Below are positions 34,131 through 51,036 of a DNA stretch of 60,730 nt, in pieces. How positions within the stretch are numbered: the first letter of the stretch is position 1; the number at the start of each line of letters is the position of its first letter. A program made the position numbers and the translations under genes. The stretch is from Rhodobiaceae bacterium (lineage in GTDB: Bacteria > Pseudomonadota > Alphaproteobacteria > Rhizobiales > Tepidamorphaceae): contig JAGRLC010000028.1 in assembly GCA_020441995.1 (NCBI GenBank), positions 57,337-118,066 on the forward strand, in the 5' to 3' direction. The notes under the pieces were generated by a model. The model saw nothing but the letters and a program-made list of their open reading frames with translations, was not told where the DNA came from and searched no databases.

Positions 34131-35582
34131 TTATATGCTCATGCAGACGTATTTGATCTCCAGGAACTCATCCATTCCGTATTTCGAGCCCTCGCGCCCG
34201 AGGCCGGATGACTTGATGCCCCCGAAGGGAGCTTCGGCGGTTGAGATCAGGCCGGTGTTGACGCCGACCATGCCGCTTTCAATCTCCTCGGAGACCTTCC
34301 ACACGGTCGACAGATCGCGGCTGTAGAAATAGGCCGCAAGCCCGAACTCGGTGGAATTGGCCATCGATATCGCCTCGTCCACAGTGTCGAAGGAGATGAT
34401 CGGAGCGACGGGACCGAAGGTCTCTTCGCTGAGGACTTTCATGCCTTCCTTCACGCCCTTCAACACCGTCGGCTGGTAGAAGGTGCCGCCAAGCTCCGAG
34501 CGCTTGCCGCCAGTGAGAACGGTCGCGCCCTTCGACGTCGCGTCCTTGACGTGATCCTCGACTTTGGCAAGGCCCTCCTCGTCGATCAGCGGACCGATGT
34601 TGACGCCCTCGGCCGTGCCGTCGCCGACTTTGAGCTTCTCGGTCGCCTTGACCAGTTTCTCCGCGAACTCATCGACCACGCCACTCTGAACATAGATGCG
34701 GTTGGCGCAGACGCAGGTCTGGCCGGAGTTGCGGTACTTGGCGATCAGCGCGCCCTCGACCGCCTTGTCTATATCGGCGTCGTTGAAAACCAGGAACGGC
34801 GCATTGCCGCCAAGTTCCAGCGACAGCTTCTTGATGTCGTGGGCGCACTGCTTCATCAGGATGCGCCCCACCTCGGTCGACCCCGTGAAGGTCAGCTTGC
34901 GCACTTTCGGGTTGGTGCAAAGTTCCAGCCCCATGCCCCTGGAATCCGATCCCGGCACGATGCTGAAGATGCCGGCGGGAACGCCGGCGCGCTCCGCCAG
35001 CTTGGCCATGGCGAGTGCCGACAGCGGGGTCTTTTCCGCAGGCCTGCCGACGAAGGCGCAGCCGGACGCCAGCGCCGGCCCTGCCTTGCGGGCAATCATC
35101 GCATTGGGGAAGTTCCACGGCGTGATCGAGCCGACAACGCCGATGGGCTGTTTCAAGACGACGATGCGCTTGTCTGTCTGGTGACCGGGAATGATGTCGC
35201 CATAAACGCGGCGCGCCTCTTCGGCGAACCACTGCACGAAGCTCGCACCATAGGCGATCTCGCCCTTCGCCTCGGCGAGGGGCTTGCCCATCTCGGCCGT
35301 CAGGATGAGAGCGAGATCATCGGCGTTCTCAAGCATCAGATCGTTCCACTTGAGCAGGATCGCGCAGCGCTCCTTGGCGGTCATGGCGCGCCAGCTCTTC
35401 TGCGCCTCATAGGCCGCATCGATCGCCTCGCGCACATCCTCGGCGCCGAGATCGGCGACGCGGGTCACCTCCTCGCCATTGGCGGGATTGATGACGGGAA
35501 ACGTTTTCTTGCCATCTTTCCACTTGCCACCGACCAGGCCACGCGACTCCAGCAGCTCGGGATCCTTCAGATTTAGCGACAT
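34131..35582 (-). CDS. gabD: succinate-semialdehyde dehydrogenase (GabD/BlcA-like)
   Basis: 483 residues, aldehyde dehydrogenase superfamily, GabD length. Catalytic E256 in LSLELGGNAP and C290 in NSGQTCVCANR; cofactor loop FTGSTEVGR. Oxidises succinate semialdehyde to succinate. The cofactor motif usually reading KPA-x-x-TP is GRPAEKTP here, so the conserved lysine is R180. Last gene of the minus-strand array, 33 bases after the iron alcohol dehydrogenase, together giving 4-hydroxybutyrate to succinate. Confidence 0.9.
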   Translation of the reverse strand: MSLNLKDPELLESRGLVGGKWKDGKKTFPVINPANGEEVTRVADLGAEDVREAIDAAYEAQKSWRAMTAKERCAILLKWNDLMLENADDLALILTAEMGKPLAEAKGEIAYGASFVQWFAEEARRVYGDIIPGHQTDKRIVVLKQPIGVVGSITPWNFPNAMIARKAGPALASGCAFVGRPAEKTPLSALAMAKLAERAGVPAGIFSIVPGSDSRGMGLELCTNPKVRKLTFTGSTEVGRILMKQCAHDIKKLSLELGGNAPFLVFNDADIDKAVEGALIAKYRNSGQTCVCANRIYVQSGVVDEFAEKLVKATEKLKVGDGTAEGVNIGPLIDEEGLAKVEDHVKDATSKGATVLTGGKRSELGGTFYQPTVLKGVKEGMKVLSEETFGPVAPIISFDTVDEAISMANSTEFGLAAYFYSRDLSTVWKVSEEIESGMVGVNTGLISTAEAPFGGIKSSGLGREGSKYGMDEFLEIKYVCMSI

Positions 35583-35615: not shown

Positions 35616-36773
35616 TCAGTATGCGGCCTGATAGATCGCGAGCGCGTCGGCTTCTGTAACAGGCCGGGGATTGTTTACAAGCAGGCGCGTCTGGTTCATC
35701 GCATCCGACGCGAGCCTGGGCAGGAAGTCTTCTGCAATATTCATCTCCCGCAGGCTTTGCTGAAGCCCGCAGGCCTTCGACAGGTCCGCCAGCGCATCGC
35801 AGAAAGCCGCCGCTCTTTCCTGCCCCTCATATTTGGCAAGCTCCGGGAAAGCAAAAGGCGCGATTTCGGCATAGGGCTGCGGCGTCGTCGCGGCGTTGAA
35901 CCGCAAAACATGGGGCAGCACCAGCGCGTTGGAAAGCCCGTGCGGGATATGGAAATGCCCGCCGAGCGGATAAGCCAGCGCATGAACGGCGGCGACGGGC
36001 GAATTGGCGAAGGCCTGCCCCGCCAGCATGGAGCCGAGCAGCATGTCGGAACGCGCGTCCATGTCCGAACCTTCATGCACGGCCTTCAGCACCGAACGGC
36101 CCATCAGCGTCAGCGCCTGGCCGGCCAGTATGCGCGAGACGGGATTGTTGTTGGGGCTCGCGGAAGCATAGGCTTCGATCGCATGCACCATGGCATCTAT
36201 GCCGGTTGCCGCGGTGATGTGCGGCGGCAGGCCAAGCGTCAGTTCGGGATCAAGCAACGCGATGTCCGGCAGGATGACCGGCGACACCACGCCCATCTTC
36301 TCGTTGGTGCCCGTCGTGACAATCGAAATCGGCGTTACTTCCGAGCCTGTGCCCGAGGTTGTCGGCACCAGGATCAGCGGCAGGCGCGGCCCCTTGGCAT
36401 TGCCGACACCGTAGATGTCTTTCAGGTTTTCCTTGCCCATGGCGAGCACGGCAACGAGCTTGGCCACATCGAGCGACGAGCCGCCGCCGAGGCCGACGAT
36501 ACCTTCAACGTCCGCGCCCTTGGCCTGCTCCGCCGCCGTAAGGATAATGTGTTCCGGCGGGTCGGCCTCAACATCGCTGAAAACCTCGACGGCGACACCG
36601 GCGGCCTTGAGCGCCTCGAGCGCGCGGTCGACGATACCGGTCTTCACCATGCCCGGATCGGTCACCAGCATCACCCGCTCGCCGATGCTGCCGCGCACCA
36701 GTTCACCGATCTTGCCGAGCAGGCCGGGACCGAACTGGATGCTCTTCGAGGTATTGAATGTGAACGGCTGCAT
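35616..36773 (-). CDS. iron-containing alcohol dehydrogenase (4-hydroxybutyrate dehydrogenase-like)
   Basis: 385 residues. NAD motif GLGGGSSLDVAKL, PTTSGTGSEVTP, metal ligands in GIDAMVHAIEAY and AVHALAYPLGGHFHIPHG. Family members reduce or oxidise short primary alcohols, including 4-hydroxybutyrate. Pairing with succinate-semialdehyde dehydrogenase and a BlcC-like lactonase supports 4-hydroxybutyrate to succinate semialdehyde (inference). Ribosome-binding site AAAGGAGG. Confidence 0.88.
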   Translation of the reverse strand: MQPFTFNTSKSIQFGPGLLGKIGELVRGSIGERVMLVTDPGMVKTGIVDRALEALKAAGVAVEVFSDVEADPPEHIILTAAEQAKGADVEGIVGLGGGSSLDVAKLVAVLAMGKENLKDIYGVGNAKGPRLPLILVPTTSGTGSEVTPISIVTTGTNEKMGVVSPVILPDIALLDPELTLGLPPHITAATGIDAMVHAIEAYASASPNNNPVSRILAGQALTLMGRSVLKAVHEGSDMDARSDMLLGSMLAGQAFANSPVAAVHALAYPLGGHFHIPHGLSNALVLPHVLRFNAATTPQPYAEIAPFAFPELAKYEGQERAAAFCDALADLSKACGLQQSLREMNIAEDFLPRLASDAMNQTRLLVNNPRPVTEADALAIYQAAY

Positions 36774-39275: not shown

Positions 39276-40976
39276 TCAGCTATCGCTCTTGCTCTTTCCG
39301 GCCTTCGGCTTTGCTTTCGGCTCGGGCGACGGCGGATTGGGCTCCGAATAGACCACCTTGGACAAATCCTGCAGCGTGTGCGTGCGGTGGATGCTGTCGG
39401 GGCTGAGGCCGATCTCGCCGAGCAACTGATCGACGAAGGGCGCCTGCGAGCGATAGCGCAGCGCGGATGACACGACCTGATCGGCGAGATTGCCGTCGCG
39501 CGGCCCCTTGCCGTCCTCGCCGCCATTTCCACCGCCCCTGCCGTCCGTCCCGCCGGCACCGGAGAAGCCCGGCATGCCGTCGACATGGAGGATCTTGATG
39601 CCGTCGATCTTCTCCATCGGCTTGACGCTTTCGCGGATGATGTCGGGCAGCTTCTCCACCAGCGAGCGATGCAGGGCGCTGCGGCGGCTTGCGTCGGAAC
39701 GCAGGTTCTCCGCCTCGTTGAGCTTCTGCTTGCCCTCGGCCTCAACCTTGTAGCGTTCGGCAAGGGCCGCCACCGCAATGCGGTCGGCATCGGCCTTGTC
39801 CTTGGACGCGACCTTCTCGGCCTCGGCAAGGATGCGCAGGCGCGTCGCCTCGGATTCGGCCGCCTTCTGCGCCTCGATCAGTTCGATCGACTTCTGGCGG
39901 TTGGCGATCTCGGTATCGCGGATCGTCTGCACGCGCTCCTGCGCCTCGATCATCTTGGCGCGGGCCGCTTCCGCAATCGCCTGCGCGTCCGAGCGCTCCT
40001 TCGATTTCATCGAGACGGCGATCTCGCGTTCCTGCTCGTCGATCTGAAGCGCTTCCCTGCGCTTGATCTCGAGGCGCTCGATCTCGCGCTCCATGTCGAT
40101 GCGGGTCTTCTCGACCTCCTCGCGCTCCTTCAGCTTGATTGCCTCGATCTCGCGCTCGCGCGCGGCGTTCTCGCTTGCGATCTCCGACTTGCGCTGCGCC
40201 CGGTGGATCGACACCTCGGCCTCGTGAGCAAGGCGTGCGTATTCTGTATCGCGGTCGATTTCCAGGGCGCGCTTTTCCGCCTCCAGGTTCTTGGTGCGCA
40301 TCGAGATCATCGTGTCCTTCTCGATGTCGTTGCGCTTCTTCTTGCGGCTTTCGATCTGCTCGGTGAGGATCGTCAGGCCTTCCGCGTCGAAGGTATTGGA
40401 GGGATCGAACAGGGAAATGTCGGTCTGGTCGAGCGAGGTCAGCGACACCGACTCCAGCTCCAGACCATCAAGAGCAAGGCTCTCGGCGACTTCCTTCTTC
40501 ACTTCCTTGACGAAATCCTGACGGTGCTCATGGATGTGCTCCAGCGTCATCTTCGCGGCCGCACCGCCCATGGCATCGACAAAACGGCCCTGGATCAACT
40601 CCTTGAGCTGTTCGGCATGCATGGTCCGGTTGCCGAGCGAGCGCGCCGCCGTTGCGACGGCCGCATCATCGGGCGAGACGCGGACATAGAACTCGACGGT
40701 GAGTTCGATGCGCATGCGATCCTTGGTGATGAGCGACTTCTCGCGCGCCCGGATCACCTCCAGACGCAGCGTGTTCATGTTCACTTCGGTGATGTCGTGC
40801 AAGATCGGCAGCACGAACGCGCCCCCACCCATGACGACCTTTTCGCCGCCGAAGCCGGTGCGCACGAACGAAATATCCTTCGTCGACCTGCGGTAGAGCC
40901 AATGCAGCAGATAGGCGCAAACCGCGATGACGATCGCCGCAAGGATGATGATGGCAATGATATCCGCACCCGTCAT
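39276..40976 (-). CDS. flotillin-like SPFH/band 7 protein
   Basis: 566 residues. One N-terminal membrane helix (about 5-27), SPFH domain (about 30-200, with VVMGGGAFVLPILHDITEVN and LTVEFYVRVSPDDA), a long charged coiled coil (about 215-440) rich in E, K and R, and a C-terminal tail with a Gly-rich stretch (about 475-495) and a Pro/Lys-rich end. Layout of YqiK/flotillin proteins, which form ring-shaped scaffolds in ordered membrane patches. Ribosome-binding site GAAGGA. Next to the rhodopsin-like gene. Confidence 0.9.
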   Translation of the reverse strand: MTGADIIAIIILAAIVIAVCAYLLHWLYRRSTKDISFVRTGFGGEKVVMGGGAFVLPILHDITEVNMNTLRLEVIRAREKSLITKDRMRIELTVEFYVRVSPDDAAVATAARSLGNRTMHAEQLKELIQGRFVDAMGGAAAKMTLEHIHEHRQDFVKEVKKEVAESLALDGLELESVSLTSLDQTDISLFDPSNTFDAEGLTILTEQIESRKKKRNDIEKDTMISMRTKNLEAEKRALEIDRDTEYARLAHEAEVSIHRAQRKSEIASENAAREREIEAIKLKEREEVEKTRIDMEREIERLEIKRREALQIDEQEREIAVSMKSKERSDAQAIAEAARAKMIEAQERVQTIRDTEIANRQKSIELIEAQKAAESEATRLRILAEAEKVASKDKADADRIAVAALAERYKVEAEGKQKLNEAENLRSDASRRSALHRSLVEKLPDIIRESVKPMEKIDGIKILHVDGMPGFSGAGGTDGRGGGNGGEDGKGPRDGNLADQVVSSALRYRSQAPFVDQLLGEIGLSPDSIHRTHTLQDLSKVVYSEPNPPSPEPKAKPKAGKSKSDS

Positions 40977-41033: not shown

Positions 41034-41735
41034 TCAGCCATCTTTCCGCTCCTCGCCATCGAGCATCGCGGCGGCAAGCACCGCGACGCCGAACGCCATC
41101 CGGTTGAGAAAATCGGCGATATTGTAGGCGACACTCAAAGCACCGGTGTCGACATAACCACCGAAGGAGGTGATGAAATTGCCGAGCGGGTAGATCGCCC
41201 ACCCGACGGTGACGATGAGGCGCAGCCAGAAGTAGCCGCGCTTTACGGGATCGCTCATCGAGGCGCGAACCGCCTCGTCCATGCGCCCGAAGAACAGCTC
41301 GCCGAGAATGTAGAGCCAGAACACGAGCCCGATCAGGAAGGCGAGCGTTGCGTGCATGTAGGCGGCTTCGCCCAGATAGCGCACGAAGACCATCAGGATG
41401 GAGACGACGACCAGGCGCCAGAACAGCCCGATCCCGAGTTTTCCTTCCCGGCCCGCATAGAAATAGAGTGCCAGCACCTGTAGCGGCATCGACACCGCCC
41501 AGCCGACATAGTGATAGACGATGGGTACCTTGCCAGCGGCAAGCCAGGCAGCCCGCGCCTCATAAACGGCGCCGACGCCGACGAGCGCGGCAAGGGCGCA
41601 GAGCGCCACCGTCACCTTCCACGTGCGCCCGACCCAGGCGGTACCCAGCAGCAGGAAGGCGGCTGTTGCCGCGAGGCCGAATACGGCTGTCGAATAGCTC
41701 GCCGCGGTCAGGTCCGCTGTCTCATACACGGCCAT
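41034..41735 (-). CDS. microbial-rhodopsin homologue lacking the retinal lysine
   Basis: 233 residues, seven transmembrane segments. Helix F carries VGWAIYPLGN (177-186) and helix G YNIADFLNRMAFG (204-216), matching proteorhodopsin GWAIYP and YNLADFVNK; helix C reads YHYVGWAVSMPLQ (74-86). Aligned to proteorhodopsin numbering, Lys231 is R212 (codon CGG), the proton acceptor Asp97 is G78, Arg94 is H75, Glu108 is A89, while Asp227 remains as D208 and Trp98 as W79. It therefore cannot form the retinal Schiff base and has lost the proton-pump path; a sensor, scaffold or small-molecule-binding role is possible. 57 bases separate it from the SPFH gene. GGGGGA stands before the ATG. Confidence 0.85.
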   Translation of the reverse strand: MAVYETADLTAASYSTAVFGLAATAAFLLLGTAWVGRTWKVTVALCALAALVGVGAVYEARAAWLAAGKVPIVYHYVGWAVSMPLQVLALYFYAGREGKLGIGLFWRLVVVSILMVFVRYLGEAAYMHATLAFLIGLVFWLYILGELFFGRMDEAVRASMSDPVKRGYFWLRLIVTVGWAIYPLGNFITSFGGYVDTGALSVAYNIADFLNRMAFGVAVLAAAMLDGEERKDG

Positions 41736-46481: not shown

Positions 46482-47651
46482 TTATTTCTTGTAGTCGGCC
46501 GGGTCGGCCGGGTTGACGAAGAACTGGTCGAGGTAAGCCGACGAACCCCACTTGTCCTTGCCGACATTGAGCCAGTCCTGAGCATTCTCGTCGCAGTCTT
46601 CCGCCAGCAGCGCCTTGACGTCGTCATGGGTGATGATCACCGGATCGACGAGGACCGACTGCACCTTCGGACCCTGGCCGAGCAGTGTACGCATCATGAT
46701 GTCCCAGATCAGCGCGATGTCGTCGCCGGGGGGCCATGTCTGCACGGCGCTGTCGATCAGGTCGGGGTTCTTGCGCCAGGTGCACAGCGCACCGCGCTCA
46801 CCGCCGACGGTGACCTTCACGCCCTGACGGCCCGACTGCTGCAGCGCGCGCAGCACGCCCATTTCGGCCGCCGACTGCACGGCGATGCCGTCGAGTTTGC
46901 CGGGGTGCGTTGCAAGCCACTTCTGGACTTCGCCCTGGGCGACCTGATCGGTCCACATGCCGGCGATGGAGCCGACGACCTTGATGCCGGGCGCGGTGGC
47001 AAGACCGGCCTTCACACCACGGTCCTGACTGTCGGAGCCGGACGTGCCGGGGATGCCCTCGACCACGAGGACGTTACCTTCGCCGCCGAGTTCCTCGGCG
47101 AGGCGCTTGCCGATCTCGAAGCCGGCAACCTGATAGTTGACCGAGGAATTGATCGCGGTCGGCGCGGTCAGATAACCGGTCAGCGAGAACGTCGGCACGC
47201 CCTTGTCATAAGCGTACTGGACGGTCTGGTTCAGCGCCGTCGGGTTGGAACAGCACACGAAGATCGCATCGACGCCCTGATCGACAAGCTGGCGCATCTG
47301 CTGGATCTGTGTGGAGTCGTTGAGGTTCGACTGGGTGATGACGACCTCGCTGATCAGCCCGAGCTCCTTGTACTTCGGGATAATGACGTTCTGCAGGTAA
47401 TCCATGGCGTTGGCGCGCCAGGTGTTGCCGGCATAGGACGAGGCGTAGCCGATCTTCCACGGCGGCGGATTCTTGGCCTTGAAGTCACGCAGCGGGCTGG
47501 GCTCGACCGGCTGCGCGGGATCGAGCATGTCCGGGTTGTAAAGCCTTTCGGCTACCGCCGGATCGAGTTCATCCACGCCCTCGGCGCTGGATGCTATGGC
47601 GCCCGACAGCAGGATACCTGCCGCGGCCGCCAATGTGGCTAATACTCTCAT
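46482..47651 (-). CDS. ABC transporter substrate-binding protein (sugar-type, Peripla_BP_4)
   Basis: 389 residues. Signal peptide MRVLATLAAAAGILLSG, cleavage near ASS-AEG. A roughly 45-residue Pro-rich segment precedes the fold, which begins KIGYASSYAGNTWRANAMDY; QLVDQGVDAIFVCCSNPTA and VVEGIPGTSGSDSQDRG are RbsB/XylF-like features. The start is the second ATG, because GGGAGG touches the first and lies nine bases before the second. Supplies ligand to the ABC transporter downstream; with the lactonase upstream, a lactone or sugar lactone is a candidate (inference). Confidence 0.9.
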   Translation of the reverse strand: MRVLATLAAAAGILLSGAIASSAEGVDELDPAVAERLYNPDMLDPAQPVEPSPLRDFKAKNPPPWKIGYASSYAGNTWRANAMDYLQNVIIPKYKELGLISEVVITQSNLNDSTQIQQMRQLVDQGVDAIFVCCSNPTALNQTVQYAYDKGVPTFSLTGYLTAPTAINSSVNYQVAGFEIGKRLAEELGGEGNVLVVEGIPGTSGSDSQDRGVKAGLATAPGIKVVGSIAGMWTDQVAQGEVQKWLATHPGKLDGIAVQSAAEMGVLRALQQSGRQGVKVTVGGERGALCTWRKNPDLIDSAVQTWPPGDDIALIWDIMMRTLLGQGPKVQSVLVDPVIITHDDVKALLAEDCDENAQDWLNVGKDKWGSSAYLDQFFVNPADPADYKK

Positions 47652-47781
47652 TGAGTTCATCCTCCCTTGTGATTTCAGTGTGGGACGTCGCGGGCGTTCC
47701 CGTTTGCATCCCGGTTTCGTTTCAGGCTCCCCTCGCCTTTTCGTCCTCCCCTGCCTTGCTTGGCCGGCTGAAGCTGCCGCC

Positions 47782-48717
47782 TCAGTCGTAGAAATCGTGC
47801 GGCGCCTTCAGGAACGTCTTCCAGTTGTCCGGGTCGTGGCCGGTGACGACCATGGCGCCTGTGTCCTTCGCGACCTGCCGCAACTTGGCGACGGAATCGG
47901 CCGCCTCCGCAGACGACACGACGAGACCCGGCAGTGCCTTGTTCTCCCAGTGATCGAGCGTGTAGGCGGCATCGATGGTCAGCAGCACCGGCCCGGTCTT
48001 GGGCAGGTTGATCAGGAACGACTGGTGTCCCGGCGCGTGACCCGGCGTGAAGATCGTGCGGATGACGCCATCGCCGAACAGGTCATAGAAGTCGGTGTAT
48101 TCGCCGCCGAGGAACTTCCAGTTGAGGCCGGGGCGGTCGAAATCGGCCCGGATGTAGGCACCGGAGGAGAACCAGTGCGGATCGTAGGCGTATTCATACT
48201 CGCGCCGCTGCACGACGATCTGCGCGTTGGGGAAATGACCGATCGCACCGGTGTGATCGAGGTGCAGATGCGACTGCAGAACGTAGCGCACCGAATGCGG
48301 ATCGACGCCGACCATCTTGCACTGGTCTACGCAATTGTCGGCGACATCCATGACCGGATCGTAGGCATCGACCACCGCCCCCCAGTGACCGCGCTTGTCG
48401 ATGGCCACCTCGATGGCATTGCCGCCGTCTATGACGACGTTGCCCATCGGGTGCTTGATCAGGAACCAGGGAACCGGGATCTCGAAGTCGCTCTCGCCCT
48501 GGTTCATCTTGATGTATTTGAGCTTGGTCCGCAGCGTTCCGGTCTGGAACATGTAAAGCTCGATGCCCGACGAGTTGCGGCCCCGGCGTGAGGCTTCGGG
48601 CGCCCGCGACGGCCTTTCCGGGCGCGGCGCAAGGCTGCTCGAACCAAGGCTCGAGGATACCGAACCCGCATCGGTTTCGACGCGCTGGCCCTTGTCGTCG
48701 AATTCCACGATCTTCAT
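47782..48717 (-). CDS. metallo-beta-lactamase-fold lactonase (BlcC/AttM-like)
   Basis: 311 residues. Dinuclear metal site H150-x-H152-x-D154-H155 (SHLHLDHTG), H227 (TPGHAPGH), D249 (TIDAAY), H294 (VTGHDPDN), the pattern of the AttM/BlcC and AiiA lactonases that open gamma-butyrolactone or acyl-homoserine lactones. The first 50 residues are a Ser/Arg/Pro-rich extension (SSSLGSSSLAPRPERPSRAP) without known function. In the same array as a 4-hydroxybutyrate-type dehydrogenase and succinate-semialdehyde dehydrogenase. Confidence 0.87.
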   Translation of the reverse strand: MKIVEFDDKGQRVETDAGSVSSSLGSSSLAPRPERPSRAPEASRRGRNSSGIELYMFQTGTLRTKLKYIKMNQGESDFEIPVPWFLIKHPMGNVVIDGGNAIEVAIDKRGHWGAVVDAYDPVMDVADNCVDQCKMVGVDPHSVRYVLQSHLHLDHTGAIGHFPNAQIVVQRREYEYAYDPHWFSSGAYIRADFDRPGLNWKFLGGEYTDFYDLFGDGVIRTIFTPGHAPGHQSFLINLPKTGPVLLTIDAAYTLDHWENKALPGLVVSSAEAADSVAKLRQVAKDTGAMVVTGHDPDNWKTFLKAPHDFYD

Positions 48718-48766: not shown

Positions 48767-49615
48767 TCACGTGCGCTCCCCGATGAGGCGCAGGGCCTCC
48801 TTCAGGTAGACCGCGAACAGCGGATAGTTCTCCGACATCGGGAAGTGCCCGATGTCTTCCATCTCGATGTAGATGCCGCCGGGGATCTGCCGGGCCGTGG
48901 CCTCGGTCGCTTCCGGCGGTGTCAGGTAATCGTAGGTTCCGGTCATCATCACGACAGGGCAGCGCCGGGTGTCGATGCCGCCCAGCTTGCCGCGCAGGTC
49001 GTGATCGACCGAGTAGAAGAAGAGATCGCCTTTGAAGACCTCGGAGCCCTGCGTGTAGTAGTGCCAGGTCAGCCAGCGGTCCATGTCCGGGCTTTGCGGC
49101 GCCATCAGATCCCAGACGCCCGAGGCGCAGACCTGGGCCGCGTTGGCATGGGGGTGGCGCCACCAGTCGAGGAAGAAACCCGGCGCATGCTCGGCCGCCT
49201 CGACGGGAATTACGGCCTTGAAGCGGTCCGGATGATGCAGCGCCAGCTGGAGGGCGACATTGCCGCCAAAAGAGGAGCCCATGAAAATCGGGTCTTCGAG
49301 CTCCAGCGCGTCGCAGAAGGCGACGATGAAATTCATGTAGTGATCGGCGGTCAACCGGTACTCTTCCTTCCACCACTCCTTGTTGAGCGGGGGATCGGAC
49401 TTGCCGTGGCGGGCAAGGTCATAGGCGATGACGTCGTAATTCGCGGTGATCTCGGGGTCTTCCAGCAGGTCGCGCCACTGGTGATTATGGCAGCCCGCCG
49501 TGTGCTGGCAGACCAGCGGAATGCCCGAACCGTTGCGCAGATAGAAAACCTTGTACTCGCAGCCGTCGACCTCGATGGTCACATAGCGGCCGACTACGGG
49601 CGAATGCTTGGCCAT
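48767..49615 (-). CDS. alpha/beta hydrolase
   Basis: 282 residues. Oxyanion region LVCQHTAGCHNHQW, nucleophile elbow GSSFGG, acid TGTYDYLT and catalytic histidine IGHFPMSE near the C-terminus. An esterase, lactonase or C-C hydrolase acting on a small molecule; it may prepare the substrate of the lactonase 50 bases downstream (inference). GGAG seven bases before the ATG. Confidence 0.88.
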   Translation of the reverse strand: MAKHSPVVGRYVTIEVDGCEYKVFYLRNGSGIPLVCQHTAGCHNHQWRDLLEDPEITANYDVIAYDLARHGKSDPPLNKEWWKEEYRLTADHYMNFIVAFCDALELEDPIFMGSSFGGNVALQLALHHPDRFKAVIPVEAAEHAPGFFLDWWRHPHANAAQVCASGVWDLMAPQSPDMDRWLTWHYYTQGSEVFKGDLFFYSVDHDLRGKLGGIDTRRCPVVMMTGTYDYLTPPEATEATARQIPGGIYIEMEDIGHFPMSENYPLFAVYLKEALRLIGERT

Positions 49616-49673: not shown

Positions 49674-50063
49674 TCATACCGGCACACCAACCTTGCGCAG
49701 CAGTTCGAACTGGACGGTGAAATTGCGCAGGTTCTGCATCAGGACGAGAACGTTGCCCTCGATCTTGAGATCGCGGCGGAAGCTGGCCGACCAGATGCCG
49801 TGATACATCGGATCGGGAACGGGACGGGCGAACTCGCGCCATGTCTGGGGGCTTGCCCTCAGCGCGAAGTCGTAGGAGTCCATGGGAGCCGGGTCGATGT
49901 TGACCTCGTGCACCTTGCCGTCAACCATCCGCACGATGACCTTGGCGTTGCCCATGTCCCACAGGTAGGTGCAGGTGAAATACCGCGCCATGGCGCCGAT
50001 CGTCTGATCGCGATCGGATGCCTCGCTGAACCGGACGGCCCAATCCCTGACTGTCATCGCCAA
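49674..50063 (-). CDS. small SCP2-like protein
   Basis: 129 residues. The C-terminal half (YDFALRASPQTWREFARP, then RRDLKIEGNVLVLMQNLRNF) has the spacing of SCP2 sterol-carrier-like domains, which bind hydrophobic small molecules; this is a weak resemblance by eye. A TTG start at 50063 with GGAGGA seven bases upstream is better placed than the ATG six bases later. First gene of the lactonase array and divergent from the IclR regulator. Confidence 0.65.
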   Translation of the reverse strand: MAMTVRDWAVRFSEASDRDQTIGAMARYFTCTYLWDMGNAKVIVRMVDGKVHEVNIDPAPMDSYDFALRASPQTWREFARPVPDPMYHGIWSASFRRDLKIEGNVLVLMQNLRNFTVQFELLRKVGVPV

Positions 50064-50238: not shown

Positions 50239-51036
50239 ATGAACAGGCCCGAGGCAAATCTGAAGCTCGTACCCGCCGTTGAGCGGGCAACACGCATCCT
50301 CGATCTGGTGGCGCGGACGAAGTCTTATCTCAGTCTTTCGGAGCTCTCGCGCGAGCTTGGCATCGCCAAAAGCTCGGTCCACACGTTGTGCAATACGCTG
50401 GTCCAGCTCGAGCTGCTGATCCGCCGCCCGGACCAGACTTTCCAGCTCGGGCCGCATGTCATGCGCTGGTCCAACGCGTTCACCCAACAGTCTGACGTGG
50501 CGGCGGAATTCGCGACGATCTGGGATCAGGAAACCGAATTGCCCGGCGCCACGATCACCCTCACCGTGCTTGATGGTTCCGAGGTTGTATATCTTGCCGC
50601 GCGCAACTCCGCCGTGAGCCATTCGCTAATGGATTTCAAGGCCGGCATGCGCCTGCCCGCTGCTTTCACGGCAACCGGGAAAGCCTTCCTTAGCCACATG
50701 AGCGATTTCGAGGTGAAACGCCTGTACGCGGATGGGCTCCCCCCGCCACGCACACCCTACAGCGTGCAATCAGTCGAAAAACTGCTGGGAGAATTGAGCG
50801 AGACACGCGCCAGAGGGTACTCGGTCGATGACCAGCAGGTTGCCGAAGGCATCGTCTGCTACGGCTCGCCGGTGCTGGATTCACGCAACCGGCCCATGGC
50901 CGGCATAGCCGTCAGTGTTCTCGCCGAACAGGTTTCGGAGGAGGAAAAGGCACGCATTATTTCAAACGTGCAGCGCATCGCCGTGCGCCTCTCGGTGCGC
51001 ATGGGCGCCGATCTTGGCGGTGACGCCGCCAAGTGA
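50239..51036 (+). CDS. IclR-family transcriptional regulator
   Basis: 265 residues. Winged helix at about 12-65 (VERATRILDLVARTKSYLSL, ELGIAKSSVHTLCNTL), then the GAF-like effector domain with LPAAFTATGKAFLSHM and GIVCYGSPVLDSRNRPMAGIAVSV. BlcR, which represses the Agrobacterium butyrolactone operon, belongs to this family, and the gene is divergent from the lactonase array, so the same role is inferred. Confidence 0.9.
   Translation: MNRPEANLKLVPAVERATRILDLVARTKSYLSLSELSRELGIAKSSVHTLCNTLVQLELLIRRPDQTFQLGPHVMRWSNAFTQQSDVAAEFATIWDQETELPGATITLTVLDGSEVVYLAARNSAVSHSLMDFKAGMRLPAAFTATGKAFLSHMSDFEVKRLYADGLPPPRTPYSVQSVEKLLGELSETRARGYSVDDQQVAEGIVCYGSPVLDSRNRPMAGIAVSVLAEQVSEEEKARIISNVQRIAVRLSVRMGADLGGDAAK

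Follow-up and report, generated by a model that had tools for sequence, protein, structure and literature searches.

What can a rhodopsin do that has lost the lysine of the Schiff base and lies among the genes of a catabolic operon? This question is raised by a gene (41034–41735, reverse strand) in a 60,730-nucleotide stretch of a Rhodobiaceae contig (JAGRLC010000028.1), henceforth referred to as the window. The product of this reading frame matched the Pfam Bac_rhodopsin profile well past the cut-off (1.6e-22). Residues were numbered by alignment with 4jq6, 9r21 and 33 pumps, in which proteorhodopsin positions 94, 97, 101, 105, 108, 227 and 231 correspond to H75, G78, S82, Q86, A89, D208 and R212. 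The Schiff-base lysine of proteorhodopsin pumps (K231) is absent, with R212 in its place, and the counterion D97 and the donor E108 that characterize these pumps have become G78 and A89. An initial annotation made from the letters alone had listed R212 (codon CGG), G78, H75, A89, Q86 and D208, all of which are borne out by the alignment and by the reading of helix G (GAT TTT CTC AAC CGG, D208-F-L-N-R212). It had also allowed for another lysine at the retinal position, and the alignment shows none on helix G. What it overlooked were the downstream flotillin gene, the substitution R119 and the fact that the family already has a name. RefSeq calls the FAR protein "bacteriorhodopsin".

The protein is a light-blind member of the flotillin-associated rhodopsins (FArhodopsins or FARs), a proteorhodopsin subclade with an altered DTE motif described in 2023 (Haro-Moreno et al., PMC10308929). 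Marine FArhodopsins keep the lysine, yet seemingly have no room for retinal, and in freshwater metagenomic ones the lysine is replaced by Q, T, L or R (PMC10308929). The closest solved structures are those of PsFAR, 9r21 and 9r23 (1.1e-45 for 9r21; the best-scoring pump reached 2.9e-34). The same two gave the best superposition with the AlphaFold model (pLDDT 91; TM 0.95, Z 32), a structure prediction of the kind the initial annotation had proposed. A tree of 77 rhodopsins recovered a FAR clade of 37 (support 100/97), among them PsFAR and the HIMB59-like FARs. The lysine-less FARs form a part supported at 100/100, on a long branch (1.2) that invites some caution, and divide into an Arg clade with 26 rows and support 100/99 and a Leu clade with four rows (100/100); homologues with Arg at this site do form a clade, a point on which the annotation had wanted a tree. 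The DTE motif reads G-S-A here and DTT, DTL or DNI in marine FARs. A flotillin gene adjoins on the same strand, and the genes typical of FArhodopsin clusters (SCP2-like protein, permease, sodium symporter and alpha/beta hydrolase) are all present (Table 1). The earlier view that a bacterial opsin without the lysine is unexplained therefore has to be given up: the family, Arg variants included, was described in 2023 (PMC10308929), and Rh-noK is a second bacterial case. In the literature searched we found no established function for FArhodopsins.

Table 1. Genes of the FArhodopsin operon and its flanks, with positions in the window.
Feature	Position	Strand	Evidence or remark
Succinate-semialdehyde-type dehydrogenase (SSADH)	34131..35582	-	TIGR01780 over cut-off; 63% to C58 BlcA
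Iron-containing alcohol dehydrogenase (Fe-ADH)	35616..36773	-	53% to C58 BlcB
Sodium:solute symporter family protein, ~650 aa	36806..38758	-	Pfam SSF 5.5e-07; start overlaps as in Martelella
Small hydrophobic protein, 137 aa	38755..39168	-	no family match
Flotillin, 566 aa (Band_7 + Flot)	39276..40976	-	Pfam Flot 2.9e-35, Band_7 1.3e-16
FArhodopsin, 233 aa, lysine-less (R212), pocket residue R119	41034..41735	-	Pfam Bac_rhodopsin, nearest PDB 9r21, tree
ABC permease 2, 459 aa, BPD_transp_2 at 172-443, N-terminal TM extension ~139 aa	41784..43163	-	
ABC permease 1, 477 aa, BPD_transp_2 at 63-319, C-terminal TM extension ~150 aa	43160..44593	-	
ABC ATPase, sugar type, two ABC domains, C-terminal extension ~99 aa	44590..46419	-	Pfam ABC_tran
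Periplasmic substrate-binding protein (SBP)	46482..47660	-	Pfam Peripla_BP_4 1.4e-35
AttM/BlcC-type lactonase	47782..48717	-	NCBIfam NF045700 427.7 bits, cut-off 390; 63% to C58 AttM
Alpha/beta hydrolase	48767..49615	-	Pfam Abhydrolase_1
SCP2-like 129-aa protein (weak)	49674..50063	-	SCP2 E=0.022, below cut-off
IclR-family regulator, divergent	50239..51036	+	43% to BlcR of C58; same place in L001-L018

Permease 2, FAR and flotillin follow each other in this order at 34/34 loci, and homologues with Arg share the wider surroundings too, as the initial annotation had wondered: in L001–L018 the order is the divergent IclR gene, then SCP2-like protein, hydrolase, AttM, SBP, ATPase, permease 1, permease 2, FAR, flotillin, 137-aa protein, symporter and finally Fe-ADH and SSADH, the last two not being seen after the symporter in four Rhizobium-type loci. 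All three FAR groups (Arg, Leu and lysine-bearing) share a core of SBP, ATPase, both permeases, FAR, flotillin, SCP2-like protein, hydrolase and symporter; individual loci can be partly rearranged or have gaps. Of the cluster's genes the alpha/beta hydrolase is the most conserved (79–94% in Arg-type and lysine-bearing clusters), and the SCP2-like protein is kept in all FAR groups. Flotillin homologues without any rhodopsin are common. Neither the permease extensions nor the 137-aa protein could be given a Pfam family, scans for promoters and terminators stayed at shuffle level, and the window holds no Rfam families or tRNAs. The operon also occurs on accessory plasmids of Martelella, Hoeflea and Pararhizobium (NZ_CP014276.1, NZ_CP011481.1, NZ_CP119410.1). 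One further plasmid record, CP070278.1, is labelled Dysgonomonadaceae (Bacteroidota); its length is almost that of a plasmid from Martelella lutilitoris, and both carry the operon with equal identities, so that its organism label is probably wrong.

Sister operons on rhizobial plasmids, ordered SCP2-like protein, hydrolase, SBP, ATPase, permease, permease and SSADH, are devoid of FAR, flotillin, 137-aa protein and symporter. Their permeases measure 323–324 and 338–339 aa, versus 477 and 459 aa in the window, and their ATPase has a C-terminal extension of 19–21 residues versus ~99. Almost every measured FAR locus has the N-terminal extension of permease 2 (~133–153 aa, 3–5 hydrophobic segments); two are atypical owing to start-codon choice. 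The C-terminal extension of permease 1 spans ~133–207 aa (3–4 segments) in the lysine-less FAR groups and reaches 436–484 aa with ~10 hydrophobic segments in lysine-bearing clusters (L080, L084, L096); the L080 permease 1 matched no further Pfam family. Among 72,556 plasmid records, a full-length extended permease 2 occurred in just the six that also hold FAR; 59 others matched the core only. The pair of SCP2-like protein and hydrolase also occurs beside other genes in FAR-less settings, and in nine such sampled regions no permease, flotillin or FAR was found near it (0/9). From the permease lengths and the co-occurrence on plasmids it appears that FAR comes with an enlarged importer and flotillin, an association seen in sequence comparisons and partly among related records.

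The catabolic genes point to the substrate. A blcABC-type set (lactonase, iron alcohol dehydrogenase, SSADH and IclR regulator) is present, with homologues of BlcC/AttM, BlcB, BlcA and BlcR of Agrobacterium C58 (identities in Table 1), in agreement with the earlier description of the operon as lactone-type. The blc operon breaks down gamma-butyrolactone via GHB and succinic semialdehyde (PMC5924552). Judging by these homologies, the substrate here is probably a related lactone or ester. The enzymes differ in lysine-bearing FAR clusters, i.e. the catabolic part varies and the membrane part stays. In the SSADH-type enzyme the VKPAE motif near the NAD(P) site has Arg where Lys is usual (FVGRPAEKT). 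Of the 17 relatives checked, 11 have this Arg, and a search for the pattern in the remaining six found no match. The cofactor or substrate may differ from those of a true SSADH.

We put at roughly 0.5 the probability that this lysine-less FArhodopsin uses neither retinal nor light and serves, with flotillin, as a scaffold of the importer. It would form a pentamer like PsFAR and act as a light-independent scaffold or regulatory subunit, holding or tuning, together with flotillin, both the importer (extended permeases, ATPase and SBP) and the sodium symporter within a single patch of membrane. The imported ester or lactone would be opened by the alpha/beta hydrolase and BlcC, and the BlcB/BlcA-type dehydrogenases would then oxidise the product towards succinate. 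Operon neighbours can be co-regulated without touching, which counts against a reading in terms of contact. The frequency of flotillin homologues in rhodopsin-free settings and the incompleteness (75%) of the window's genome weigh on the same side. A bolder version, offered as tentative, has a rhodopsin become a structural or regulatory ABC-importer subunit: one light-independent membrane complex would comprise FAR, flotillin and the added transmembrane segments of both permeases, and an ordinary catabolic operon would have gained it as a unit.

Among the alternatives, a proton pump in decay might be suspected from the joint loss of lysine, counterion and donor. Arg stands at position 212 in 26/26 members of the Arg clade, distinct relatives that are 61–100% identical, and the loss is thus not peculiar to this copy, the one circumstance that the initial annotation had seen as damaging; a lone mutation or a sequencing error is ruled out by the same count. 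Over the 25 members in the codon analysis this Arg is written with five different codons, 68 positions are invariant, and dN/dS is 0.03–0.17 in the closest pairs, with a median of 0.14 across the pairs whose dS is finite. These figures and the fixed operon position refute decay, to which we grant next to no probability, and uphold the earlier view of a repurposed fold. An intact gene under purifying selection likewise rules out a pseudogene. Assistance to a pump in the same cell would need a second rhodopsin, and there is a single one in the window's genome (75% complete), in each of 18/18 homologue genomes and in each of the 31 rhodopsin-bearing genomes among 397 sampled from the order. Retinal is formed by the enzyme Blh, which was found in all eight sampled genomes with a canonical lysine pump and in 0/30 of those with a lysine-less FAR. 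Even a lysine-bearing FAR can be the sole rhodopsin, again without Blh, as in G598, G691 and G768. These genomes (~4 Mb each) have four flotillin matches apiece, some being pieces of one gene. It is true that HIMB59-like genomes (G748 and G671) hold pump and FAR together, and that marine FARs, which coexist with a proteorhodopsin pump, have been proposed to assist it (PMC10308929). Such coexistence, which does not define a FAR, is not seen here, and with neither second rhodopsin nor Blh in these genomes the published idea does not fit this lineage; for the Arg clade it is strongly disfavoured. Only slightly better can be said of light sensing through retinal or a carotenoid bound non-covalently, which we consider very improbable: the aromatic box (W79, W140, W179, Y182) is retained, but R119 sits at the beta-ionone end of the pocket, and besides the missing Blh no RPE65-type oxygenase was found in the 13 Arg-clade genomes searched. 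RPE65 matches were obtained in G096 and in G598, the one of the three genomes with only a lysine-bearing FAR in which they were sought. Other rhodopsin-like proteins came up in these surveys. Five genomes of one genus of the order (G103, G155, G216, G234 and G068; loci L034–L036, L043 and L044) have Bac_rhodopsin-like open frames of 370–394 aa, with Blh absent in both genomes searched, and a 1.2-Mb genome (G785) encodes at L082:9259-10008 a second, divergent rhodopsin that retains the lysine and reads T-A-T at 97/101/108.

The former pocket bears on the main rival, by which FAR would be a chemoreceptor whose ex-retinal site binds a small molecule, perhaps the operon substrate or a fatty acid, and signals in a GPCR-like manner to importer or flotillin. 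Arg119 is present in 30/30 lysine-less FARs of both clades, where DTE pumps have Gly in the alignment; E120 of PsFAR aligns with R119 and H84 with M83, and PDB 9r23 is the PsFAR double mutant H84V/E120G. We infer from these correspondences that position 119/120 would be a pocket-blocking site. In the Arg clade 15 of 20 retinal-pocket positions are invariant, and the pocket is far more conserved than the other transmembrane positions (entropy 0.10 vs 0.66). The core now combines H75, R119 and R212 with D208, and retinal-free proteoopsin binds decanoate by its carboxylate (PMC11322631). An invariant aromatic pocket would suit a ligand-binding sensor equally well, which counts against the scaffold. 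The same pocket is, however, as conserved in pumps, and its conservation leaves room for a ligand or for packing only; the cluster has no transducer gene, and R212 is lost in the Leu clade, so that a cationic site is not common to all lysine-less FARs. Taken together, a chemoreceptor seems unlikely, though worth keeping in mind. Less likely again is a transporter, channel or lipid/fatty-acid carrier working alongside the ABC importer and the SSS symporter: the gene lies among transporter genes, the fold descends from seven-helix ion pumps and the cluster includes an SCP2-like protein, but the residues of the proton path (D97, E108, R94) have all gone and the sequence gives no sign of another path.

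What is new here is an Arg clade of FARs in cultured Hyphomicrobiales and relatives. FArhodopsins are widespread, and their study has been slowed by the lack of cultured hosts; with Hoeflea, Martelella, Rhizobium, Stappia and Zhengella, in which FAR is the only rhodopsin found, their function becomes testable, the FAR-less sister operons providing natural controls. The Arg clade argues against light use as the core role of FARs and makes the importer with extra permease segments a likely partner. Database names such as 'bacteriorhodopsin' are misleading for the lysine-less members.

Compared with known systems, the locus most resembles the freshwater lysine-less FArhodopsins of PMC10308929 in clade, flotillin neighbour, altered DTE motif and replaced lysine (Arg being among their variants), and the published clusters also share the SCP2-like protein, the permease (an 'inner membrane translocator'), the sodium symporter and the alpha/beta hydrolase. 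They differ in having dimethylformamidase and PxpA genes where blc-type catabolic genes are found here, and in their hosts, which here are cultured Hyphomicrobiales and relatives (also plasmids) in which pump and Blh were undetected. Marine FARs keep the lysine that is R212 in our protein. PsFAR (9r21/9r23) is 37% identical, superposes over its full length and likewise has a bulky charged residue at 120/119, but keeps K, D97 and T101 and has E120, as opposed to R212, G78 and R119 here. Rh-noK of betaproteobacteria (Yamauchi et al. 2019, as cited in PMC10308929) is also a rhodopsin without the retinal lysine; according to that citation it is related to xanthorhodopsin and forms a tandem with a functional pump, an arrangement that has no counterpart in the single-rhodopsin genome of the window. 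The rhizobial FAR-less ABC operon (e.g. pRtrCIAT899a) matches in gene order and at 38–63% identity (the SCP2-like protein by profile only), with permeases of normal length and without FAR, flotillin or symporter. Finally, blcABC (attKLM) of Agrobacterium C58 shares the homologous lactonase, iron alcohol dehydrogenase, SSADH and IclR regulator, but its genes are ordered differently and lack an adjacent dedicated importer, flotillin or rhodopsin.
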